From positions 1 to 36,607 of the IMG/VR virus record IMGVR_UViG_3300027849_000025: a DNA stretch of 36,607 nucleotides, one strand, 5' to 3'. Origin of the DNA: a virus. The notes under the pieces are model-generated. The model was not told the origin of the DNA and did no database searches. It saw only the letters and a list, made by a program, of their open reading frames with translations. Below, one piece after another: positions 7,323 through 16,793 of this stretch. Made by a program: the position numbers and the translations under genes. How positions within the stretch are numbered: position 1 is the stretch's first letter; each line of letters starts with the position of its first letter.

Positions 7323-8522
7323 ATGTCAGATTTTAAAAATACACAAGACTTTAGAAAGAGTAAGTTGTCGAAGCATGCTTATCAAGACCCAACGTACCTA
7401 TCTTTCACGTTGATGTTTGATTTTGCAGATGCTGCCAATTCACCTTTTTTATCTAAACCAGCAGAAGACTTTTTATTTAAGTTAACTGAAGGAGAGGGAA
7501 ATGAATCGTCTGAATTCTATAAAGAAAGATTAGAAGCATTGATGAACTTTAAGAAAGCTCTTAAGACTATTAATCAAGATATGCCATGGTACTGGCAAGG
7601 ACTTAGTGGATTAGAAAAACTTCAACAATATGATCCTCAAAAACCGTATAAAGGTGGACCTGACGCTGTATTAACAATTGAAACTTTAGAATCTTTAAAT
7701 CTTCCAATTGCAGGTTTAATGCATTTATATCGTAAAGCGGTATTTGACGAAAGAAAATGGACATATATCTTACCTGCAAACTTACGTAAATTTAGAATGT
7801 ATGTATATGTTACTGAAGTTAGAACTATTAAAAACATGAGTAGTCCAAAAATTAATGGACTTAATAAGGGTGCTCTTAAGGGATTCCCAGATAATTTTAA
7901 ACCTTCAATAGATATTCAAAATAGTAATGAAGGTATATCAGGAACATCCGGCAGACCTTATTTTATGTTTGGTTTAAAGTATTGTGAATTTGATATGGCT
8001 AGTGGAACCGGATCTTTTGCTGATTTAAAGAAATCTCCGGAAGGAGCAGCTGCTGGCGAAATAGCAATAAAATATGAAAAACTATATTCATTAGAAGCAA
8101 GAGCCCTTAACGGTATAGTATCAAGTGAATTCGGTAATGATAATCTATCACCAGCTCCTGATTCAGAATCAGGTGGACCCAATACTCTAACGGATTGGGC
8201 TAAAGCAAAGGCATTAGAAGCAGGAAAGCAATTTGCAGATAAAGCAATTACTGATCTTAAAACTATGGCTAATAATAAAGTTGGAGAACTTAAACAACAA
8301 GCAAAGGATGCTACTATAGGTAGATTAAATGCTGCAGTTCAAAATGCTTATAAGGATTTCGTTAGCGGAGTTGATGACGTAGCATCGTTGCCAAATCAAG
8401 CAAGAAACATAAGTGCTGCCATAACTGAAAACATACATGGTGGACTTATACAACCAGGAAATACATTAGGAGATACATTAAATAGCGCAACTATAAGATC
8501 TTTAGGTAACGTACATGAGTAA
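7323..8522 (+). CDS. Tail tube-cap/initiator-like baseplate protein (399 aa)
   Basis: The N-terminal region reads TYLSFTLMFDF (residues 24-34), then a helix and MPWYWQGLSGLEKL (87-100). It continues with a strand-rich core, KWTYILPANLRKFRMYVYVT (145-164) and RPYFMFGLKYCEFDM (211-225). This strand layout recalls the tube-like folds of baseplate proteins that start the tail tube (T4 gp54 and gp48). The C-terminal quarter is a long Ala/Lys-rich helical region (about residues 290-360) that could contact the tape measure or sheath. It overlaps the spike gene by 8 bases (ATGAGTAA), so hub-side and spike proteins are probably made together. The specific T4 equivalence is inference. Confidence 0.6.
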   Translation: MSDFKNTQDFRKSKLSKHAYQDPTYLSFTLMFDFADAANSPFLSKPAEDFLFKLTEGEGNESSEFYKERLEALMNFKKALKTINQDMPWYWQGLSGLEKLQQYDPQKPYKGGPDAVLTIETLESLNLPIAGLMHLYRKAVFDERKWTYILPANLRKFRMYVYVTEVRTIKNMSSPKINGLNKGALKGFPDNFKPSIDIQNSNEGISGTSGRPYFMFGLKYCEFDMASGTGSFADLKKSPEGAAAGEIAIKYEKLYSLEARALNGIVSSEFGNDNLSPAPDSESGGPNTLTDWAKAKALEAGKQFADKAITDLKTMANNKVGELKQQAKDATIGRLNAAVQNAYKDFVSGVDDVASLPNQARNISAAITENIHGGLIQPGNTLGDTLNSATIRSLGNVHE

Positions 8523-9272: not shown

Positions 9273-11003
9273 ATGCCAGCAAAGTGGCCTTTATTTATAA
9301 ATAACGTATCTACTAAACTAGATAGTAGGAGCTCTGAATCAATGGGCATCGCTACAGAAACCGATCCTCCTAAGATAGGGGATTTTGCTGAGTTTCTTGC
9401 AAACGAATATACGTCAGCAGTGTCAACTGCTCAAACCCCATTTGGAAATACCCATAATAATACTGGTCAAAAACTAATACTTGTAGAGGGTTTTGATAAG
9501 GCTTTCAAAAAACTATATGAAGATTATGATACTTCCTTAGAAGATAGGAAAACAATCGAGAAGTATAGAGATATGATGGAAGGCTTGCCAAACGCAGATC
9601 TTAGTTTTGATGCAAATTGTGAAATTGAAAAATGGGCACTAGAAAATACAGATACTCTAGAAAAATTTAGATTTTATCCTCTATATAATTCAACATGTCC
9701 TGTTCCGTATCCAATCGAAGATACAGAGCAAGGAGATTCTTTAGATTTTAATATAATAACAAAGGCGTCTTCTGATATTAATTCAGTCTCACATAACTAT
9801 ATAGTTAAATTCACACTATCAAAATACGATGATGAACAATCTTATAAGGTAAGATATTCATTAAACGAGGTTGAGCAAGGACTAGTGACAATCGGGAATG
9901 ACGGATTCACAACCCTTAAAATACCGCAAGTTGCTGGTACATACGCTTATAATTTTATTGAAATACTAAACAGTACTGGTGAGGATCTTATTAGAACTGT
10001 TAATAAATCAAAATCTATAACAATAGGTGATGGTGGTGTTCTTGAGAAATTAAGTGACATTGATGACTTATTACAAGGAGAGAATTCAGAATATCCTGAG
10101 GTTATTGAAAAAGAACCTAGGAATCCAATTCCAACAATGACTGATGAAGAACAGATAGATGCATTAGCAATGAGAGTTCTTGCACAAAACGACGGAACTA
10201 TATACTTTAGAACATGGGTTTATCGCTTGGGAAATTATGGTCTTTTTTCTACACTTGGATTAAAAGTTGAAAACAGCATTAAAAGATTAGAGTCGACATG
10301 GCGAGCAGACGAGAAATCTAGATTAAGGATAGGTCGAAAAAGGTTCCCATTGGATATAATGCCTCCTATTGAAGTTGAAGATACTATAAATCAATATGTT
10401 TTTCAAGAGGAACATGAAGATAGAGTAGACGCAATACCTGAGGATATTACAGCTGATTTTATATGTAAATTTATATATGTAAAAGCATATGATACGTCTA
10501 TTAATTCAGGAGTTGCTTCTAGATCACATGCTAGAAAGGTAAAACTATATAAGGAAGAAAAGAAAAGGTGGTGGGAACTTCAAATAAAATGGGCAAGATC
10601 TAAAGAAGAAGAGCTTAAACAAGATCAGGAAGAAGACGGAGTAGATCCTTATGAGATAATGTCGTCAGCTGTTATTACATATTGGATGTCATCAACAGTA
10701 CAGCCCTTCACATCATCACCTCCGGTCCCACCTTGTAATGTACCTGTACCTTTGGGTGGTATATATGCACCAATATATTATGGAAGTAAATCAATGCTAG
10801 CAAACGATTTAAGAAGGGCATGGAACACTGGTAAGATTTTTGAAGTCCAGCCGGCCAATCCAATAGCATCAAAATTAGTTGCAACCGCAGTTGCAGTATC
10901 ATTCGCTAAGCATTTAGCATTATTAAAGTTTTTATATCTAGGAGGTATTACAACCCCAGCTGGTCCTGTACCAATGGTTGGATTCGTACCTGTTGTATTT
11001 TAA
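9273..11003 (+). CDS. Unrecognised baseplate-associated protein with Ig-like middle and hydrophobic C-terminus
   Basis: I do not recognise this 576-aa protein by family. The N-terminal part (MPAKWPLFINNVSTKL, then GDFAEFLANEYTSAVSTA at 36-53) is helical. Residues about 175-243 form alternating strands with a GTYAYNF motif typical of Ig/PKD-like domains. Residues about 420-460 are a charged helix. The last 100 residues are Pro-rich (SSPPVPPCNVPVPLGG) and then strongly hydrophobic (ATAVAVSFAKHLALLKFLYL, about 536-555), ending in PAGPVPMVGFVPVVF. Coming directly after the spike gene, it may be a spike-tip, hub-cap or membrane-contacting virion protein. The hydrophobic tail may insert in a membrane or pack in an oligomer. 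Function unknown. Confidence 0.7.
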   Translation: MPAKWPLFINNVSTKLDSRSSESMGIATETDPPKIGDFAEFLANEYTSAVSTAQTPFGNTHNNTGQKLILVEGFDKAFKKLYEDYDTSLEDRKTIEKYRDMMEGLPNADLSFDANCEIEKWALENTDTLEKFRFYPLYNSTCPVPYPIEDTEQGDSLDFNIITKASSDINSVSHNYIVKFTLSKYDDEQSYKVRYSLNEVEQGLVTIGNDGFTTLKIPQVAGTYAYNFIEILNSTGEDLIRTVNKSKSITIGDGGVLEKLSDIDDLLQGENSEYPEVIEKEPRNPIPTMTDEEQIDALAMRVLAQNDGTIYFRTWVYRLGNYGLFSTLGLKVENSIKRLESTWRADEKSRLRIGRKRFPLDIMPPIEVEDTINQYVFQEEHEDRVDAIPEDITADFICKFIYVKAYDTSINSGVASRSHARKVKLYKEEKKRWWELQIKWARSKEEELKQDQEEDGVDPYEIMSSAVITYWMSSTVQPFTSSPPVPPCNVPVPLGGIYAPIYYGSKSMLANDLRRAWNTGKIFEVQPANPIASKLVATAVAVSFAKHLALLKFLYLGGITTPAGPVPMVGFVPVVF

Positions 11004-11006
11004 AAC

Positions 11007-11016
11007 GTATATATAC
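11007..11016. promoter_or_regulatory. 10-bp palindrome GTATATATAC in the S1-like gene leader
   Basis: A perfect palindrome lies 47 bases upstream of the S1-like start, inside a 60-base AT-rich gap, and recurs at 14589-14598 just before the gp25-like gene. It could be a promoter element or operator; chance is a serious alternative in this base composition. Confidence 0.2.
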
Positions 11017-11063
11017 ATTATAATTATTTACACACAATTACTAACAATTTAAATTAAAAAAAG

Positions 11064-12329
11064 ATGTCACAAGACGTTAAGAGAAAAAGACTTCCGGTAA
11101 CTAATCCAGAGGTTGAAACTAAAAAAAGAGTAGAGATTGACTTTACTGAATATGCAAATGTTCCTATCGAAGAATTTGATTGGGATGCGCATCAAGAAGG
11201 TTGTCCGAGCCAATCAAGAGTTCAAAATACTAAATTAAAAACACCAAGCGGATGGACTGTATATTCAACAGCACCTTACGCACAGGATTTCTTAAACCTA
11301 TTAACAGGTTACGAAGAATCAGTAGAACACATTCAACAGTTAAAAATTGAAAATGGTGGAATATATGATGGTGTTATTGAAACAGTTAACGAAACATGGG
11401 TATCCGTTGATATTGGATATCGTGAATCGGTTTATGTTTCCGTTGTTAAAGAAGAAGCAAGCATCAGAGATCAATTTGTAGTAGGAAATGAAGTTAAGAT
11501 TCAGGTTCTAGAATACGGTGGATCTAAAGGATACGTATTAGGTTCTATTTCAGCTGGAGTTAAGACTGCAGTTGTTGCTGAAATTATGGCTTCTATTGAG
11601 GGTGGATCAACCGGATATATGGGTACAGTTACTGAAATGATTCCGGGTGGTGGTTACATCGTTCGTATTCAAGGAATTGATTGTTTTATGCCAGGTTCAT
11701 TAGCTGGAATTAATAAATTAGTAGACTTTGAATCTATCATCGGAACAGATATGTATGTAGTGCCTGTAAGCTTCTCAGAAAAGAGAGGAACTATCGTGGT
11801 ATCACATAGAGAATATCTTAAAGCTATGATTCCATCTAGAATTGAATCATTAAAAGAAAACATTGGAGAGGAAATTACAGGAAACGTTACAGGATCTGCA
11901 AAATACGGAGTATTTGTTGAATTCAACGAATGTTTAACTGGAATGATTCACGTTAACGACTTAACACCAGAAATGTTAAAAGCTCATAAAGCTAGAGAAA
12001 TTAATCCAGGTGCTGAAATAACTTTTAAAATTAAGGAAGTTGTTAGCGAAACTAAGATTATCTTAACTCAATTAGATCAAGCACCTAGTGTTGACCTATG
12101 GGACGGTATTGAAGATCGTATTAAAACACCAAGTGAGGTTGTAGGAACGGTTAGAGCTGTTAAAGATTATGGAATCTTTATCGATATTGAAAAAGGAGTT
12201 GCAGGTTTATTACATATTTCTGAAATTGAAGATGTTTTAGAAACAACTGATATTAAACCAGGAGATAGCATCACAGTTCAAGTTACACGAATTGACGCAG
12301 CTACTCGTAAGATCTTTTTAAAGATTTAA
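11064..12329 (+). CDS. Ribosomal protein S1-like RNA-binding protein (four S1 domains)
   Basis: This 421-aa protein has four S1 (OB-fold, RNA-binding) domains at about residues 97-163, 180-250, 267-337 and 356-421. Domains 3 and 4 carry the clearest signatures: GNVTGSAKYGVFVEFNECLT then GMIHVNDL (273-300), and GTVRAVKDYGIFIDIEKGVA then GLLHISEIED (361-390). The first 96 residues are a charged, non-S1 extension. Cellular S1 binds the 30S subunit and recruits mRNA, and bacterial S1 commonly has four to six such domains. A phage copy could bias ribosomes toward phage mRNAs, act in RNA metabolism or bind RNA in another role. It has its own A-rich leader and a strong terminator, so it is probably an independent transcript end. 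It is unrelated to its baseplate neighbours. Confidence 0.9.
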   Translation: MSQDVKRKRLPVTNPEVETKKRVEIDFTEYANVPIEEFDWDAHQEGCPSQSRVQNTKLKTPSGWTVYSTAPYAQDFLNLLTGYEESVEHIQQLKIENGGIYDGVIETVNETWVSVDIGYRESVYVSVVKEEASIRDQFVVGNEVKIQVLEYGGSKGYVLGSISAGVKTAVVAEIMASIEGGSTGYMGTVTEMIPGGGYIVRIQGIDCFMPGSLAGINKLVDFESIIGTDMYVVPVSFSEKRGTIVVSHREYLKAMIPSRIESLKENIGEEITGNVTGSAKYGVFVEFNECLTGMIHVNDLTPEMLKAHKAREINPGAEITFKIKEVVSETKIILTQLDQAPSVDLWDGIEDRIKTPSEVVGTVRAVKDYGIFIDIEKGVAGLLHISEIEDVLETTDIKPGDSITVQVTRIDAATRKIFLKI

Positions 12330-12351: not shown

Positions 12352-12381
12352 AACCCGAGATTTAATAGTCTCGGGTTTTTT
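12352..12381 (+). terminator. Strong rho-independent terminator after the S1-like gene
   Basis: A perfect 9-bp stem (AACCCGAGA at 12352-12360 pairing with TCTCGGGTT at 12369-12377) with an 8-base loop runs into six T residues. It begins 22 bases after the S1-like stop and should end the upstream transcript, implying a promoter before the amidoligase-like gene. Confidence 0.92.
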
Positions 12382-12443: not shown

Positions 12444-13739
12444 ATGAACACATTTAACGATTCAAAAATATTAAAAAATGCCTTAGTTGGTGTCGAATTC
12501 GAATTTTATTCAAATCTTCCTATTGAAGAAACTGCCAAAAAACTTGGAAGTCTTTTAGATAAAAAGATTCAGGTAGAGACCAAAGCACATAGTGACTTTG
12601 AGCCAACTGCTGATCATTTTAAACTAGAGCCTGATATGAGTGGTGGTGTTAAATTAATGGAATTGGTAACAGGCCCTATGCCATATTACAATGCTCGTTT
12701 AATGATTATAAATGTTTGTAAATGGATAGAAGAAAACGGATATACTACCGATCGTTCGTCAATTCACTTAAACTTATCATTTGATAAAAATAAAATAGAA
12801 AATAAGAATAGAATATCTAAGATGAATGTTCTTAAGTTTATTTTAGATTTTAAAGAAGATCAAGTATTTAAATTCTTTCCAGAAAGAAAAGGATCTGCAT
12901 ATGCTAAATCAGTTAAATTTATATTACCAAATAAAGATACTTATTTCTTTGATGGTAAGACTATTAATCAACAAAATTTTACATATCCGGATTCTAAATA
13001 TTATGGAATTAACTTTGATAAAAGACATAAAAATTATCTAGAGTTTAGATATATAGGAGGTGAAGATTGGGAAAAGAAAACTTCAACCGTGCTACATATG
13101 CTAGATCAATTTCTAGTACAGCTTTGGAATTCTACTGAATCTACTCAATTTAATAGTCTTAATGCATTAGAGCTAAAGAGAATACTTGCAGAGAATCAAA
13201 GAATTATAAGTGCTAGGAAAGATTGGAGATCAATTGAAAAGAACTGGAAGGATATTCAATTCACTGTTGATTTACAAAAACACCCTCAAATATTAGATCT
13301 ACATTGGTCAAATATAAAAGAACAAGTCATGAGGCTATTCACACATGGTTCTATAACTAAAGGTCATATCAATTATGATACTGATACTAGTAAGGTACAG
13401 GTTGATGGTGGTGAATTGTCATACTGTGTTGAGATTGCAGGTTATGATTTTGTAAATAGTAAAATAAAAGGAGAATTAAAACATTGTGATTTATTTAGAT
13501 GCGAATTAGATGGATCTGATATAAATGAATGTAACTTTTATGACAGCTGTACAATAATTAGTTCTAAGGTAAAGAATTCATATGTACATCAATCATGTGA
13601 ATTAGAAGATGCATATATTTATGGAACTACCGGTATTATGAAAGGTAAAATGACTGGTGGTATATTTAGAGAGGGAAAATACGATAAGAAAACAGCCAAA
13701 TTCGATGGCACTGAAAAAATACTTTATACAGAAGTATAA
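12444..13739 (+). CDS. Amidoligase-like protein with pentapeptide-like C-terminal domain
   Basis: In this 431-aa protein, residues 1-230 fit the amidoligase (GS-like COOH-NH2 ligase) family. GVEFEF at 16-21 would supply the first-strand metal-binding acidic residues. KLEPDMS at 60-66 is followed by ELVTGPM at 73-79. RSSIHLNLSF at 104-113 supplies the conserved Arg and His, and YLEFRYIGG at 198-206 a later strand. The family uses ATP to make amide or isopeptide bonds on peptides or small molecules. Residues about 328-410 run as short strand repeats (IKGELKHCDLFRCELDGSDI, NECNFYDS, VKNSYVHQ, CELEDAYIYG), like a small pentapeptide-type right-handed beta-helix. The substrate is unknown; a virion protein, the cell wall or an anti-defence target are possibilities. 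It lies between the S1-like and wedge genes. Confidence 0.75.
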   Translation: MNTFNDSKILKNALVGVEFEFYSNLPIEETAKKLGSLLDKKIQVETKAHSDFEPTADHFKLEPDMSGGVKLMELVTGPMPYYNARLMIINVCKWIEENGYTTDRSSIHLNLSFDKNKIENKNRISKMNVLKFILDFKEDQVFKFFPERKGSAYAKSVKFILPNKDTYFFDGKTINQQNFTYPDSKYYGINFDKRHKNYLEFRYIGGEDWEKKTSTVLHMLDQFLVQLWNSTESTQFNSLNALELKRILAENQRIISARKDWRSIEKNWKDIQFTVDLQKHPQILDLHWSNIKEQVMRLFTHGSITKGHINYDTDTSKVQVDGGELSYCVEIAGYDFVNSKIKGELKHCDLFRCELDGSDINECNFYDSCTIISSKVKNSYVHQSCELEDAYIYGTTGIMKGKMTGGIFREGKYDKKTAKFDGTEKILYTEV

Positions 13740-14601: not shown

Positions 14602-14955
14602 ATGGAATTTTACGTAAAAAATGTTGGAGAACCAAACTTTAGCCCTGATAAACTACAGCAAGATGCTGAAATATCAATGCTATTAACTCAAATAGAAACA
14701 ATTCTTTTCACTAGAAAGGGAGAGGTTTTAAATGATATTAATTTTGGTGCAAATTTAGAAGATTATGTATATGAATTAAGATATAATGATTATATGTTAA
14801 AAAAATCAATACAAGATCAATTGGTTGCATACGCTCCATTATCTAATAAATATAGTGTTGATATAGAAATAGACTACGCAGATGAAACGGACAGACATGC
14901 TGTCTTTTTAGATATTATAGTTGATGGTAGAATCCAAATGGGTGTTTACGTATAA
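14602..14955 (+). CDS. gp25: gp25-like baseplate wedge / sheath initiator
   Basis: This 117-aa protein matches the GPW/gp25 family. QIETILFTRKGEVLNDINFG at residues 30-49 holds the conserved R-x-GE and FG motifs, followed by the helix NLEDYVYELR (51-60). T4 gp25 is 132 aa, so the length fits. In contractile systems this protein, built like the sheath end domain, nucleates sheath polymerisation on the inner baseplate next to the gp6/gp7 wedge core. The gene order gp25-like then gp6-like (14973-16793) is the usual synteny of contractile tails, strengthening the call. A Lys replaces some of the usual small residues but the RxGE core is intact. Confidence 0.9.
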   Translation: MEFYVKNVGEPNFSPDKLQQDAEISMLLTQIETILFTRKGEVLNDINFGANLEDYVYELRYNDYMLKKSIQDQLVAYAPLSNKYSVDIEIDYADETDRHAVFLDIIVDGRIQMGVYV

Positions 14956-14972
14956 AATAGAATAAAAATAAA

Positions 14973-16793
14973 ATGGCTGAATTTAAATTTTTAAATACTT
15001 CAAGAATTAAAGCAAATGAAATGATCTCAGATACGAGAACATACATTTCGCGATTATACGGAAGAACTAGTGAATTATTCACAACGGCTTCTCCGTTTTC
15101 TCAAATCTTGGATGTATTAACTGAACTAACAAAACTGATATTCTTCTACATTGAAGATTCAACAGTTGAGCAGAATATATTAACTGCACAAAATCCTGAA
15201 TCTATTTATGGACTTGCTAGATTAGCAGGGCATGATTCTTTTAGAGGAGCTAGTGCTTATGGTGAAATTAAACTGCGTTTAAATATATCAGCTAGTGAAA
15301 CTTTAGCAGGTGATGCTCTTAATATTATAAAGAATTCTACTATTAAATGTACTGAAAACGGATTAACATATATTTTAAAGACAAACAACGATAAATTTAG
15401 AATTGAAAAAAGCAATTCAGAATATATTTACATTCCAGTTGTTCAAGGAGAGATTGAAACACAAACAGTAACTGCTACCGGTGAAAAATTACAATCATTT
15501 AATGTTATAGTTAAAGGTTTAACGGATCATCACTCGACTAGAGTAAGTATTAATAGTGAATTATGGACTAAGTACGATTCATTATATGATATGAAAGTCG
15601 GTACTAAAGGATATTTAGTTAAGACTGGTATTTCAGGTGGATTAGATATTTATTTTGGAAATGGTTCATTTGGCGCAATACCAAATGAAGGTGCTTCAAT
15701 AGATATAGAGTACTTATTAACTAATGGTTCGAGAGGAAATTTAACAGGTTCTAAAGATCTTACATTTAAATTTATTAGCGAAGGTTTTGATTCACTTGGA
15801 GAAACATATGATTTAAACGAACTTTTAGAAGCTTCATTTACGGCTTCCCCTAAAATGGGAGCAGATCAAGAATCAACAGAATTAACTAAACTTATAGCTC
15901 CTCTACAATCACATTCGTTTGTATTGGCAAATCCAAATGCATACGAACACTTTTTATCTAGGTATGGAATGTTCTCTTATTTAGATGCATATAACACGAC
16001 TGATGATGGATATTTAGATGATGATAATGTTATCTATTTATTTATGTTGCCGGATACTGCTAGAAAATTAACTAAGAATAAAGATTATTTCAATTTAGGA
16101 TTAGATGAATTCTTTTTCTCTAGTGATGAAAAGAACGGTCTATTGGAATTATTAGAAAACAGTGGACAACAAATGGTTACTACTGAAGTTAAAATAGTAG
16201 AGCCTAGTGTTCAAAACTTTAGAATGGATGTTAAAGTAAGATATTTTGAAGGATATAATAAAGCAACAATGTATTCTGAAATTCGTGCAAAGATTTCAGA
16301 CTATTTAATTAATATAACAAGAAGAGATCGTTTACCAAAATCAGATATCATTGCATTATTGGAAACAGTAGAGGGTATAGATTCTGTAAATGTTAAATTT
16401 ACTTCTAAAACAGAAGAAGACGCAAGAAGATTAGGTTATTACATTCTTGAAAAAGTAACAGTAACTCCATCAACTCCAGTATTAGAAGATATTGGAAACG
16501 GTAAATCTAAATATGTTTTCTTTAAAAGAACGGTTACAAAACAAAAAATTAACTTTGAACCTAATGCTGCATTACCAGAAGAGGTAATAAACTTAGATTC
16601 TTTTGGAGATATTATTTTAGAAAAAGAAGAAGTTGCTCTTTTTAGAGGAGGTTGGTTAGATAGAGATAACGTGGCTGTTTTAGACGATGCTAAAATGGGA
16701 GAAATGGCGGCACTATCAATTTACTTCGATGAGCCTGCTGTACCAAATACAGTGTTCTCTAAAATACAAGCTAAAAATAGAAAAGCATTATAA
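14973..16793 (+). CDS. gp6: gp6/baseplate-J-like wedge protein (606 aa)
   Basis: This 606-aa protein fits the baseplate J family (T4 gp6, P2 gpJ), the main wedge subunit that clamps the baseplate ring. Typical features are the N-terminal helical region with FSQILDVLTELTKLIFFYIE (about residues 42-61), then SIYGLARLAGHDSFRGASAYG (about 76-95, the segment before the beta domain), a beta domain of short strands (SASETLAGDALNIIKNSTIK, then IDIEYLLTNGSRGN at about 244-257), and a C-terminal helical/beta part with RRDRLPKSDIIALLETVEGI (about 450-469). Length is close to T4 gp6 (660 aa). It follows the gp25-like gene by 17 bases and overlaps the next start by one base (TAATG). Confidence 0.88.
   Translation: MAEFKFLNTSRIKANEMISDTRTYISRLYGRTSELFTTASPFSQILDVLTELTKLIFFYIEDSTVEQNILTAQNPESIYGLARLAGHDSFRGASAYGEIKLRLNISASETLAGDALNIIKNSTIKCTENGLTYILKTNNDKFRIEKSNSEYIYIPVVQGEIETQTVTATGEKLQSFNVIVKGLTDHHSTRVSINSELWTKYDSLYDMKVGTKGYLVKTGISGGLDIYFGNGSFGAIPNEGASIDIEYLLTNGSRGNLTGSKDLTFKFISEGFDSLGETYDLNELLEASFTASPKMGADQESTELTKLIAPLQSHSFVLANPNAYEHFLSRYGMFSYLDAYNTTDDGYLDDDNVIYLFMLPDTARKLTKNKDYFNLGLDEFFFSSDEKNGLLELLENSGQQMVTTEVKIVEPSVQNFRMDVKVRYFEGYNKATMYSEIRAKISDYLINITRRDRLPKSDIIALLETVEGIDSVNVKFTSKTEEDARRLGYYILEKVTVTPSTPVLEDIGNGKSKYVFFKRTVTKQKINFEPNAALPEEVINLDSFGDIILEKEEVALFRGGWLDRDNVAVLDDAKMGEMAALSIYFDEPAVPNTVFSKIQAKNRKAL

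Follow-up and report, generated by a model that had tools for sequence, protein, structure and literature searches.

The 36.6-kb fragment of a virus record analysed here (the window) comes from a large virus of Bacteroidia-type bacteria that encodes its own shortened ribosomal protein S1 (bS1). Because this protein keeps the proposed ribosome-docking tag of Bacteroidia S1, it is probably a means by which the virus directs the ribosomes of its host in the course of infection, which would involve binding to the 30S subunit and a preference for phage mRNAs. The gene (11064..12329, + strand) is real, as first annotated: it is an intact open reading frame with an ATG start, encodes a protein of 421 aa (P0001) and is conserved in the 76 loci obtained from one scan of IMG/VR.

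Affinity of the Viral Protein With Bacterial bS1

The first-pass annotation had recognised S1 domains and raised the question of whether the nearest relatives of the protein were bacterial S1 or other S1-domain proteins. In the NCBIfam, PDB and Foldseek comparisons, bacterial bS1 was favoured throughout. All of the 11 top-ranking NCBIfam families were bS1 models, the best being NF004952 (1.7e-44 over residues 82-419), with single-domain S1 families and RNases far behind. bS1 also headed the PDB sequence search (E. coli 6bu8_Z, 1.6e-38 over residues 88-419), and the top Foldseek match was the bS1 of 9gut, an mRNA delivery complex of the 30S subunit (E=3.3e-27). The hhalign comparison with Bacteroidia bS1 gave a probability of 99.9 (E=1.8e-36) over residues 30-421, N-terminal motif included. 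The bS1 models aligned colinearly over residues 82-420, corresponding to domains D1-D4. Since bS1 led all four comparisons, the protein is, as judged from these alignments, a divergent four-domain bS1 homologue colinear with bS1 D1-D4. It is not an rpsA equivalog by the NCBIfam rule, the curated rpsA equivalog cut-off not being reached (152.1 bits vs 524). Its closest structural relatives in the viral library, from marine or uncultured phages, are already labelled "S1 motif" or "30S ribosomal protein S1".

We rejected an identity with RNases, PNPase or other RNA-decay proteins, the models of RNase R, PNPase and GSP13 being far weaker and matching one or two domains only. Only S1/OB parts were matched in Pfam and NCBIfam, with no adjoining catalytic domain. 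The protein is neither an RNase nor another kind of S1-domain protein.

The N-Terminus Carries a Bacteroidia-Type Motif

The 96 residues preceding the first domain had been described as an extension unique to this protein, a description that our comparisons contradict. The N-terminus of Bacteroidia bS1 has a homologous counterpart in residues 32-46, and the helix that precedes OB1 in bS1 corresponds to residues 73-90. We thus rejected the interpretation of this region as a novel phage domain, the Bacteroidia bS1 motif being found there by both HMM and hhalign. The segment 32-46 (NVPIEEFDWDAHQEG; 11157..11201, + strand) contains the F[DN]W motif, here F38-D39-W40, which we propose to be a 30S docking peptide. 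It was aligned by hhalign with the Bacteroides sequence VAPIEDFNWDAYENG; the bS1 of Bacteroides clarus (L080) starts with MENLKNVAPIEDFNWDAYENGE. Judged by sequence, PDB entry 9zcd also includes a Bacteroidia bS1, with F-N-W in its N-terminal part; the bS21 sequences of 9zcd and 7jil are the same.

Every one of the 112 Bacteroidia-type bS1 genes in our sample (L168-L197, L215, L216, L079-L158) has the motif; this label was inferred from their identity to Bacteroides and from the titles of the records. The motif is missing from all 18 S1 genes of the same phylum that are more distant and of lower identity, one of which (L217) was called from an internal start and may have an incomplete N-terminus. 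It thus seems restricted to Bacteroidia-type sequences. With a 20-position HMM built on the bacterial motif alone, the window protein ranked second among 373 N-termini (E=5.7e-6). With the N-terminal HMM, 24 phage S1 N-termini outscored the best of 321 controls, none of which was better than 0.34. We found no description of a bS1 F[DN]W motif in the literature searched.

The motif is followed by a linker, residues 47-72 (11202..11279, + strand), with the pattern CPSxxR..N..K..G..VYS, which is conserved among phage relatives and missing from bacterial bS1 in the alignment.

The huge-phage members of the family are devoid of F[DN]W. These other S1 proteins (L058-L076, L239, L240) often display a different conserved motif, GN(P/E)EL..LF(E/D), before OB1, which could possibly be a docking peptide for the ribosome of another host.

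Domain Organization and Contact Residues

The four S1 domains initially proposed were recovered both in the colinear alignment with bS1 D1-D4 and as four OB units in an AlphaFold2 model; Pfam S1 alone passed for two stretches only. The model has a mean pLDDT of 76 and a pTM of 0.47, so that the arrangement of the domains relative to each other is not reliable. All parts lie on the + strand. Residues 73-90 (11280..11333) form the helix before OB1, which aligns with the F5-F9 helix of E. coli bS1 and is the equivalent of its uS2-docking helix. It is followed by OB1 (residues ~97-161, 11352..11546), OB2 (~182-247, 11607..11804), OB3 (~268-336, 11865..12071) and OB4 (~355-421, 12126..12326).

In the docking of E. 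coli bS1 on uS2, the first helix contributes F5 and F9, and OB1 contributes K43, which enters the zinc pocket of uS2 (PMC10123108). The phage protein has F76 and L80 at the positions of F5 and F9, and R120 at that of K43. The residue at the latter position is basic in 34/37 phage S1s and K in 17/17 Bacteroidia. In OB2, F208 corresponds to E. coli F130, kept in all 37 phage S1s, and Y198 to F120. The E. coli contact residues Q7, E10, G78, F79 and K117 are not kept in the phage protein, and several of them vary in Bacteroidia too. In the last two domains, the RNA-contact aromatics and histidine are kept (Y281, F284 and H296 in OB3; Y369, F372 and H384 in OB4); OB4 also retains D411 and R415, and OB3 is without this D..R part of the RNA-binding signature. 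We assume here the residue scheme of the PNPase S1 domain and of the general S1 fold.

The phage protein ends after D4. In E. coli, D1-D3 are enough for 30S binding, mRNA docking and unfolding or melting, and the loss of D5-D6 is tolerated, the additional loss of D4 leading to very slow growth (PMC3858243). The D1-D4 truncation should therefore retain the working part of bS1. D4, the last domain retained, is positioned near mRNA nucleotides -12 to -15 in E. coli (PMC6847099).

This truncation could be read in another way. Retaining the docking parts and missing the two C-terminal domains of the host protein, the phage S1 might displace host bS1 on the 30S subunit and, without D5-D6, mainly weaken the translation of host mRNAs (shut-off). 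We consider such a dominant-negative role unlikely: a pure blocker would not need the RNA-contact residues that are strongly conserved in OB3-OB4, the missing domains are precisely those that E. coli can dispense with, and a location among late genes would be late for a shut-off factor. Slightly less probable still is an action away from the ribosome, the protein protecting or maturing phage mRNAs or aiding a nuclease. Many RNA decay proteins have S1 domains, and the T4 nuclease RegB is activated by host S1 (PMC9409239), but the phage protein has no nuclease domain, its similarity to RNase R, PNPase and GSP13 is partial and weak, and both the ribosome-facing OB1-OB2 and the Bacteroidia N-terminal motif have been kept.

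Phage S1 Proteins Form a Single Clade

In our phylogenetic tree, the 37 phage sequences, including those of Lak and LR7565xx huge phages, formed one clade with maximal support (100/100), separate from Bacteroidia rpsA. The bait sequence served only for retrieving real Bacteroidia rpsA genes. The stem of the phage clade corresponds to 4.6 changes per site, which is too long to place the origin of the phage S1 inside Bacteroidia, and a profile search of genome contigs with the phage alignment detected no bacterial relative. Considering this stem together with the 152 vs 524 bits obtained for the rpsA equivalog, the function of the phage S1 may have drifted. A match to an "rpsA" of Acinetobacter phage MD-2021a was set aside as host DNA, the gene lying in the ordinary bacterial order cmk-rpsA-himD.

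A Fixed Location Among Tail Genes

The location amid baseplate genes given by the first-pass annotation was recovered. The S1 gene is flanked by the gene of a tail-module protein (9273-11003) on its 5' side and by an Amidoligase_2 gene (PF12224, Pfam 4.9e-07; 12444..13739, + strand) on its 3' side. Other tail and baseplate genes lie around them (gpV/gp5-OB at 8515, gp25 at 14602, gpJ at 14973), with tail fibres further to the right. A dCMP deaminase gene is present at 530-1030 (phrog_174, 8.6e-53).

The order tail protein - S1 - amidoligase - gp25 - gpJ is fixed in the lineage of the window, with S1 identities going from 96% down to 35-39%. The amidoligase is the next homologue of a window gene 3' of S1 in these relatives, and also in the 462-kb huge phage LR756500 (L236). 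An additional segment of about 0.5-1 kb separates S1 from the amidoligase in L005, L008, L014, L016, L018, L019, L022 and L045, and not in the window. Amidoligase_2 proteins are glutamine-synthetase-like COOH-NH2 ligases, for which a role in modifying peptides or proteins has been proposed. A tie of this enzyme to S1, or to ribosome modification, is conceivable. The fixed place of S1 among tail genes could also suggest that the protein is packaged, injected or part of the tail, but this seems very improbable, as in other huge-phage lineages S1 is located elsewhere with none of these neighbours, and its best fold matches are ribosomal rather than tail OB proteins.

Transcription and Translation Signals

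The separate leader and the terminator noted at first were both recovered. They are conserved in the nearest relatives, and more distant ones lack the terminator. The leader is A/T-rich, 60 nt long (11004..11063, + strand) and without a Shine-Dalgarno (SD) sequence; it is near-identical in L002 and L003 and similar in L004, L015, L005 and L014. It includes a candidate promoter, ATATATA, at 11009-11015. This element is present in nine copies at seven intergenic sites of the window (3493, 9245, 11009, 12408, 14591, 26189 and 33471, + strand), that is in 880 intergenic bases, vs 1.4 expected from shuffling. All sites are located 5' of structural genes, S1 included, 11-55 nt ahead of the starts. 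The enrichment is limited to intergenic sites of the + strand, RRTATATA being without enrichment across the whole window on both strands. These elements look like the T4-late-like class of phage promoters. Their presence ahead of S1 among other starts suggests a promoter type common to S1 and the tail genes.

Directly 3' of the S1 gene, we read an intrinsic terminator (12352..12381, + strand) with the stem CCCGAGA/TCTCGGG followed by a T-run. It is retained in L002, L003, L004, L015, L018, L019 and L022, and with a different stem in L005, L014, L016 and L017, but not in the more distant relatives compared (L029, L032, L035, L043, L053 and L055).

The scarcity of SD sequences was confirmed. Only 3 of the 27 starts of the window have an SD match of at least 4 nt in the interval -20..-5, vs 20% of random 16-mers from the window, so that there is no excess over chance. 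The window is thus SD-poor, as judged on this 36.6-kb fragment. A predominates at positions -2, -3, -11, -13 and -17 of these starts (at -13 in 19/27 and at -3 in 18/27), similar to the A-rich, Kozak-like starts of Bacteroidetes (PMC6847099). The first-pass annotation had based a role in translation on this lack of SD sequences. Bacteroidia hosts themselves are devoid of SD (PMC9976891, PMC6847099), so that the argument by itself brings little added support. Nevertheless, the bS1 proteins that lead the NCBIfam, PDB and Foldseek matches give a role in translation much stronger support than it would have for an S1-domain protein of no particular family.

Co-occurrence With Genes of Ribosomal Protein bS21

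Of the 19 S1-phage records longer than 90 kb, 15 gave a match for bS21 in a search with PF01165. Eleven records of the window lineage encode bS21 on the same strand as S1 and 16.7-19.3 kb upstream of it, as calculated by hand from the coordinates of the loci. The reverse search recovered S1 in 13 of 26 bS21 records, indicating that bS21 also occurs in phages without such an S1. The DNA of the window is colinear with that of three bS21-bearing relatives, in which its left end maps 7.3-7.5 kb downstream of bS21. The phage studied here thus probably also encodes bS21, about 7 kb to the left of the window. One 10-kb bS21 contig, L250 (IMGVR_UViG_3300027714_002943), shares its metagenome of origin with L002, the nearest S1 relative (96%), and may be the missing upstream part of the phage of L002.

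The phage bS21 proteins keep an aromatic residue near the C-terminus (Y, W in a few). In Bacteroidia, this residue of bS21 stacks on the anti-SD, and expression of phage bS21 late in infection, together with structural genes, has been observed (PMC9723584). We detected bS18 in none of the 19 long S1-phage records. IF3 was present in five of them (L340-L343, G182), all from other huge-phage lineages and none from that of the window.

Discussion

We consider it likely that the phage bS1 docks on the platform of the Bacteroidia 30S subunit late in infection and feeds A-rich, SD-less phage mRNAs into it. Its expression would probably be late, at the same time as that of the tail genes. To dock on the platform in the place of host bS1, the protein would use F[DN]W, the helix 73-90 and OB1, and OB2-OB4 would capture the unstructured A-rich stretch 5' of the start codons. 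In this phage lineage, S1 would act beside the phage bS21, so that two exchangeable proteins lying side by side on the mRNA platform would come from the phage. More tentatively, two touching parts of the Bacteroidia platform might be replaced together, producing phage-specific ribosomes tuned to A-rich SD-less messages; F[DN]W would then be an unrecognised docking tag of Bacteroidia bS1, belonging to the platform that sequesters the anti-SD, and the phage linker that follows the motif would give an edge over host bS1. We view this extended version as possible rather than probable.

Several consequences can be drawn. The combination of the motif with the colinear D1-D4 turns the true ribosomal identity of phage S1-domain proteins, left open in 2020, into a testable claim, and the bS1-bS21 pair suggests a coordinated rebuild of the mRNA platform of the ribosome. 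F[DN]W is an apparently uncharacterised bS1 motif specific to Bacteroidia, a lineage whose ribosomes hide the anti-SD, so that the phage may shed light on SD-independent initiation of translation in these bacteria.

Comparison With Known Systems

The bS1 of Bacteroidia (rpsA, e.g., that of Bacteroides clarus) resembles the phage protein by the F[DN]W motif, the helix before OB1, the order D1-D4 and the RNA-contact residues. It differs in having six OB domains and a C-terminal tail, whereas the phage protein, with about 28% identity, ends after OB4 and has its own linker.

Phage bS21 proteins have been described in Bacteroidetes phages, encoded among late structural genes, and are thought to favour phage mRNAs (Mizuno 2019, PMC6375957; Chen 2022, PMC9723584). 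Like the phage S1, they are exchangeable proteins of the 30S platform encoded by phages, but they correspond to a different ribosomal protein; the two occur together in the S1 lineage, 17-19 kb apart. Mizuno 2019 (PMC6375957) set S1 aside as ambiguous and Chen 2022 (PMC9723584) made no mention of bS1. Another phage-encoded bS1, that of cyanophage PhiMa05, is set apart from the window protein by its description: it groups with Vampirovibrio-like bacteria and belongs to a set of six ribosomal proteins (PMC13157829).

Putative rpS1 proteins are also known from huge phages (Al-Shayeb et al., 2020, PMC7162821). These authors noticed that huge phages with rpS1 rarely have SD, proposed a redirection of initiation, and considered it difficult to confirm that the proteins were true rpS1. 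Both the occurrence of S1 genes in SD-poor huge phages and the proposal of redirected initiation were thus already published. The huge-phage rpS1 forms one monophyletic family with the window S1 and is likewise found in SD-poor carriers, but the two differ at the N-terminus, with F[DN]W in the window lineage and GN-P/E-EL..LF in the huge-phage group L058-L076. What our analysis adds to this earlier work is evidence for true, colinear bS1 D1-D4 descent, a motif common to the Bacteroidia host and phage proteins, a fixed place among the tail genes and the pairing of bS1 with bS21.
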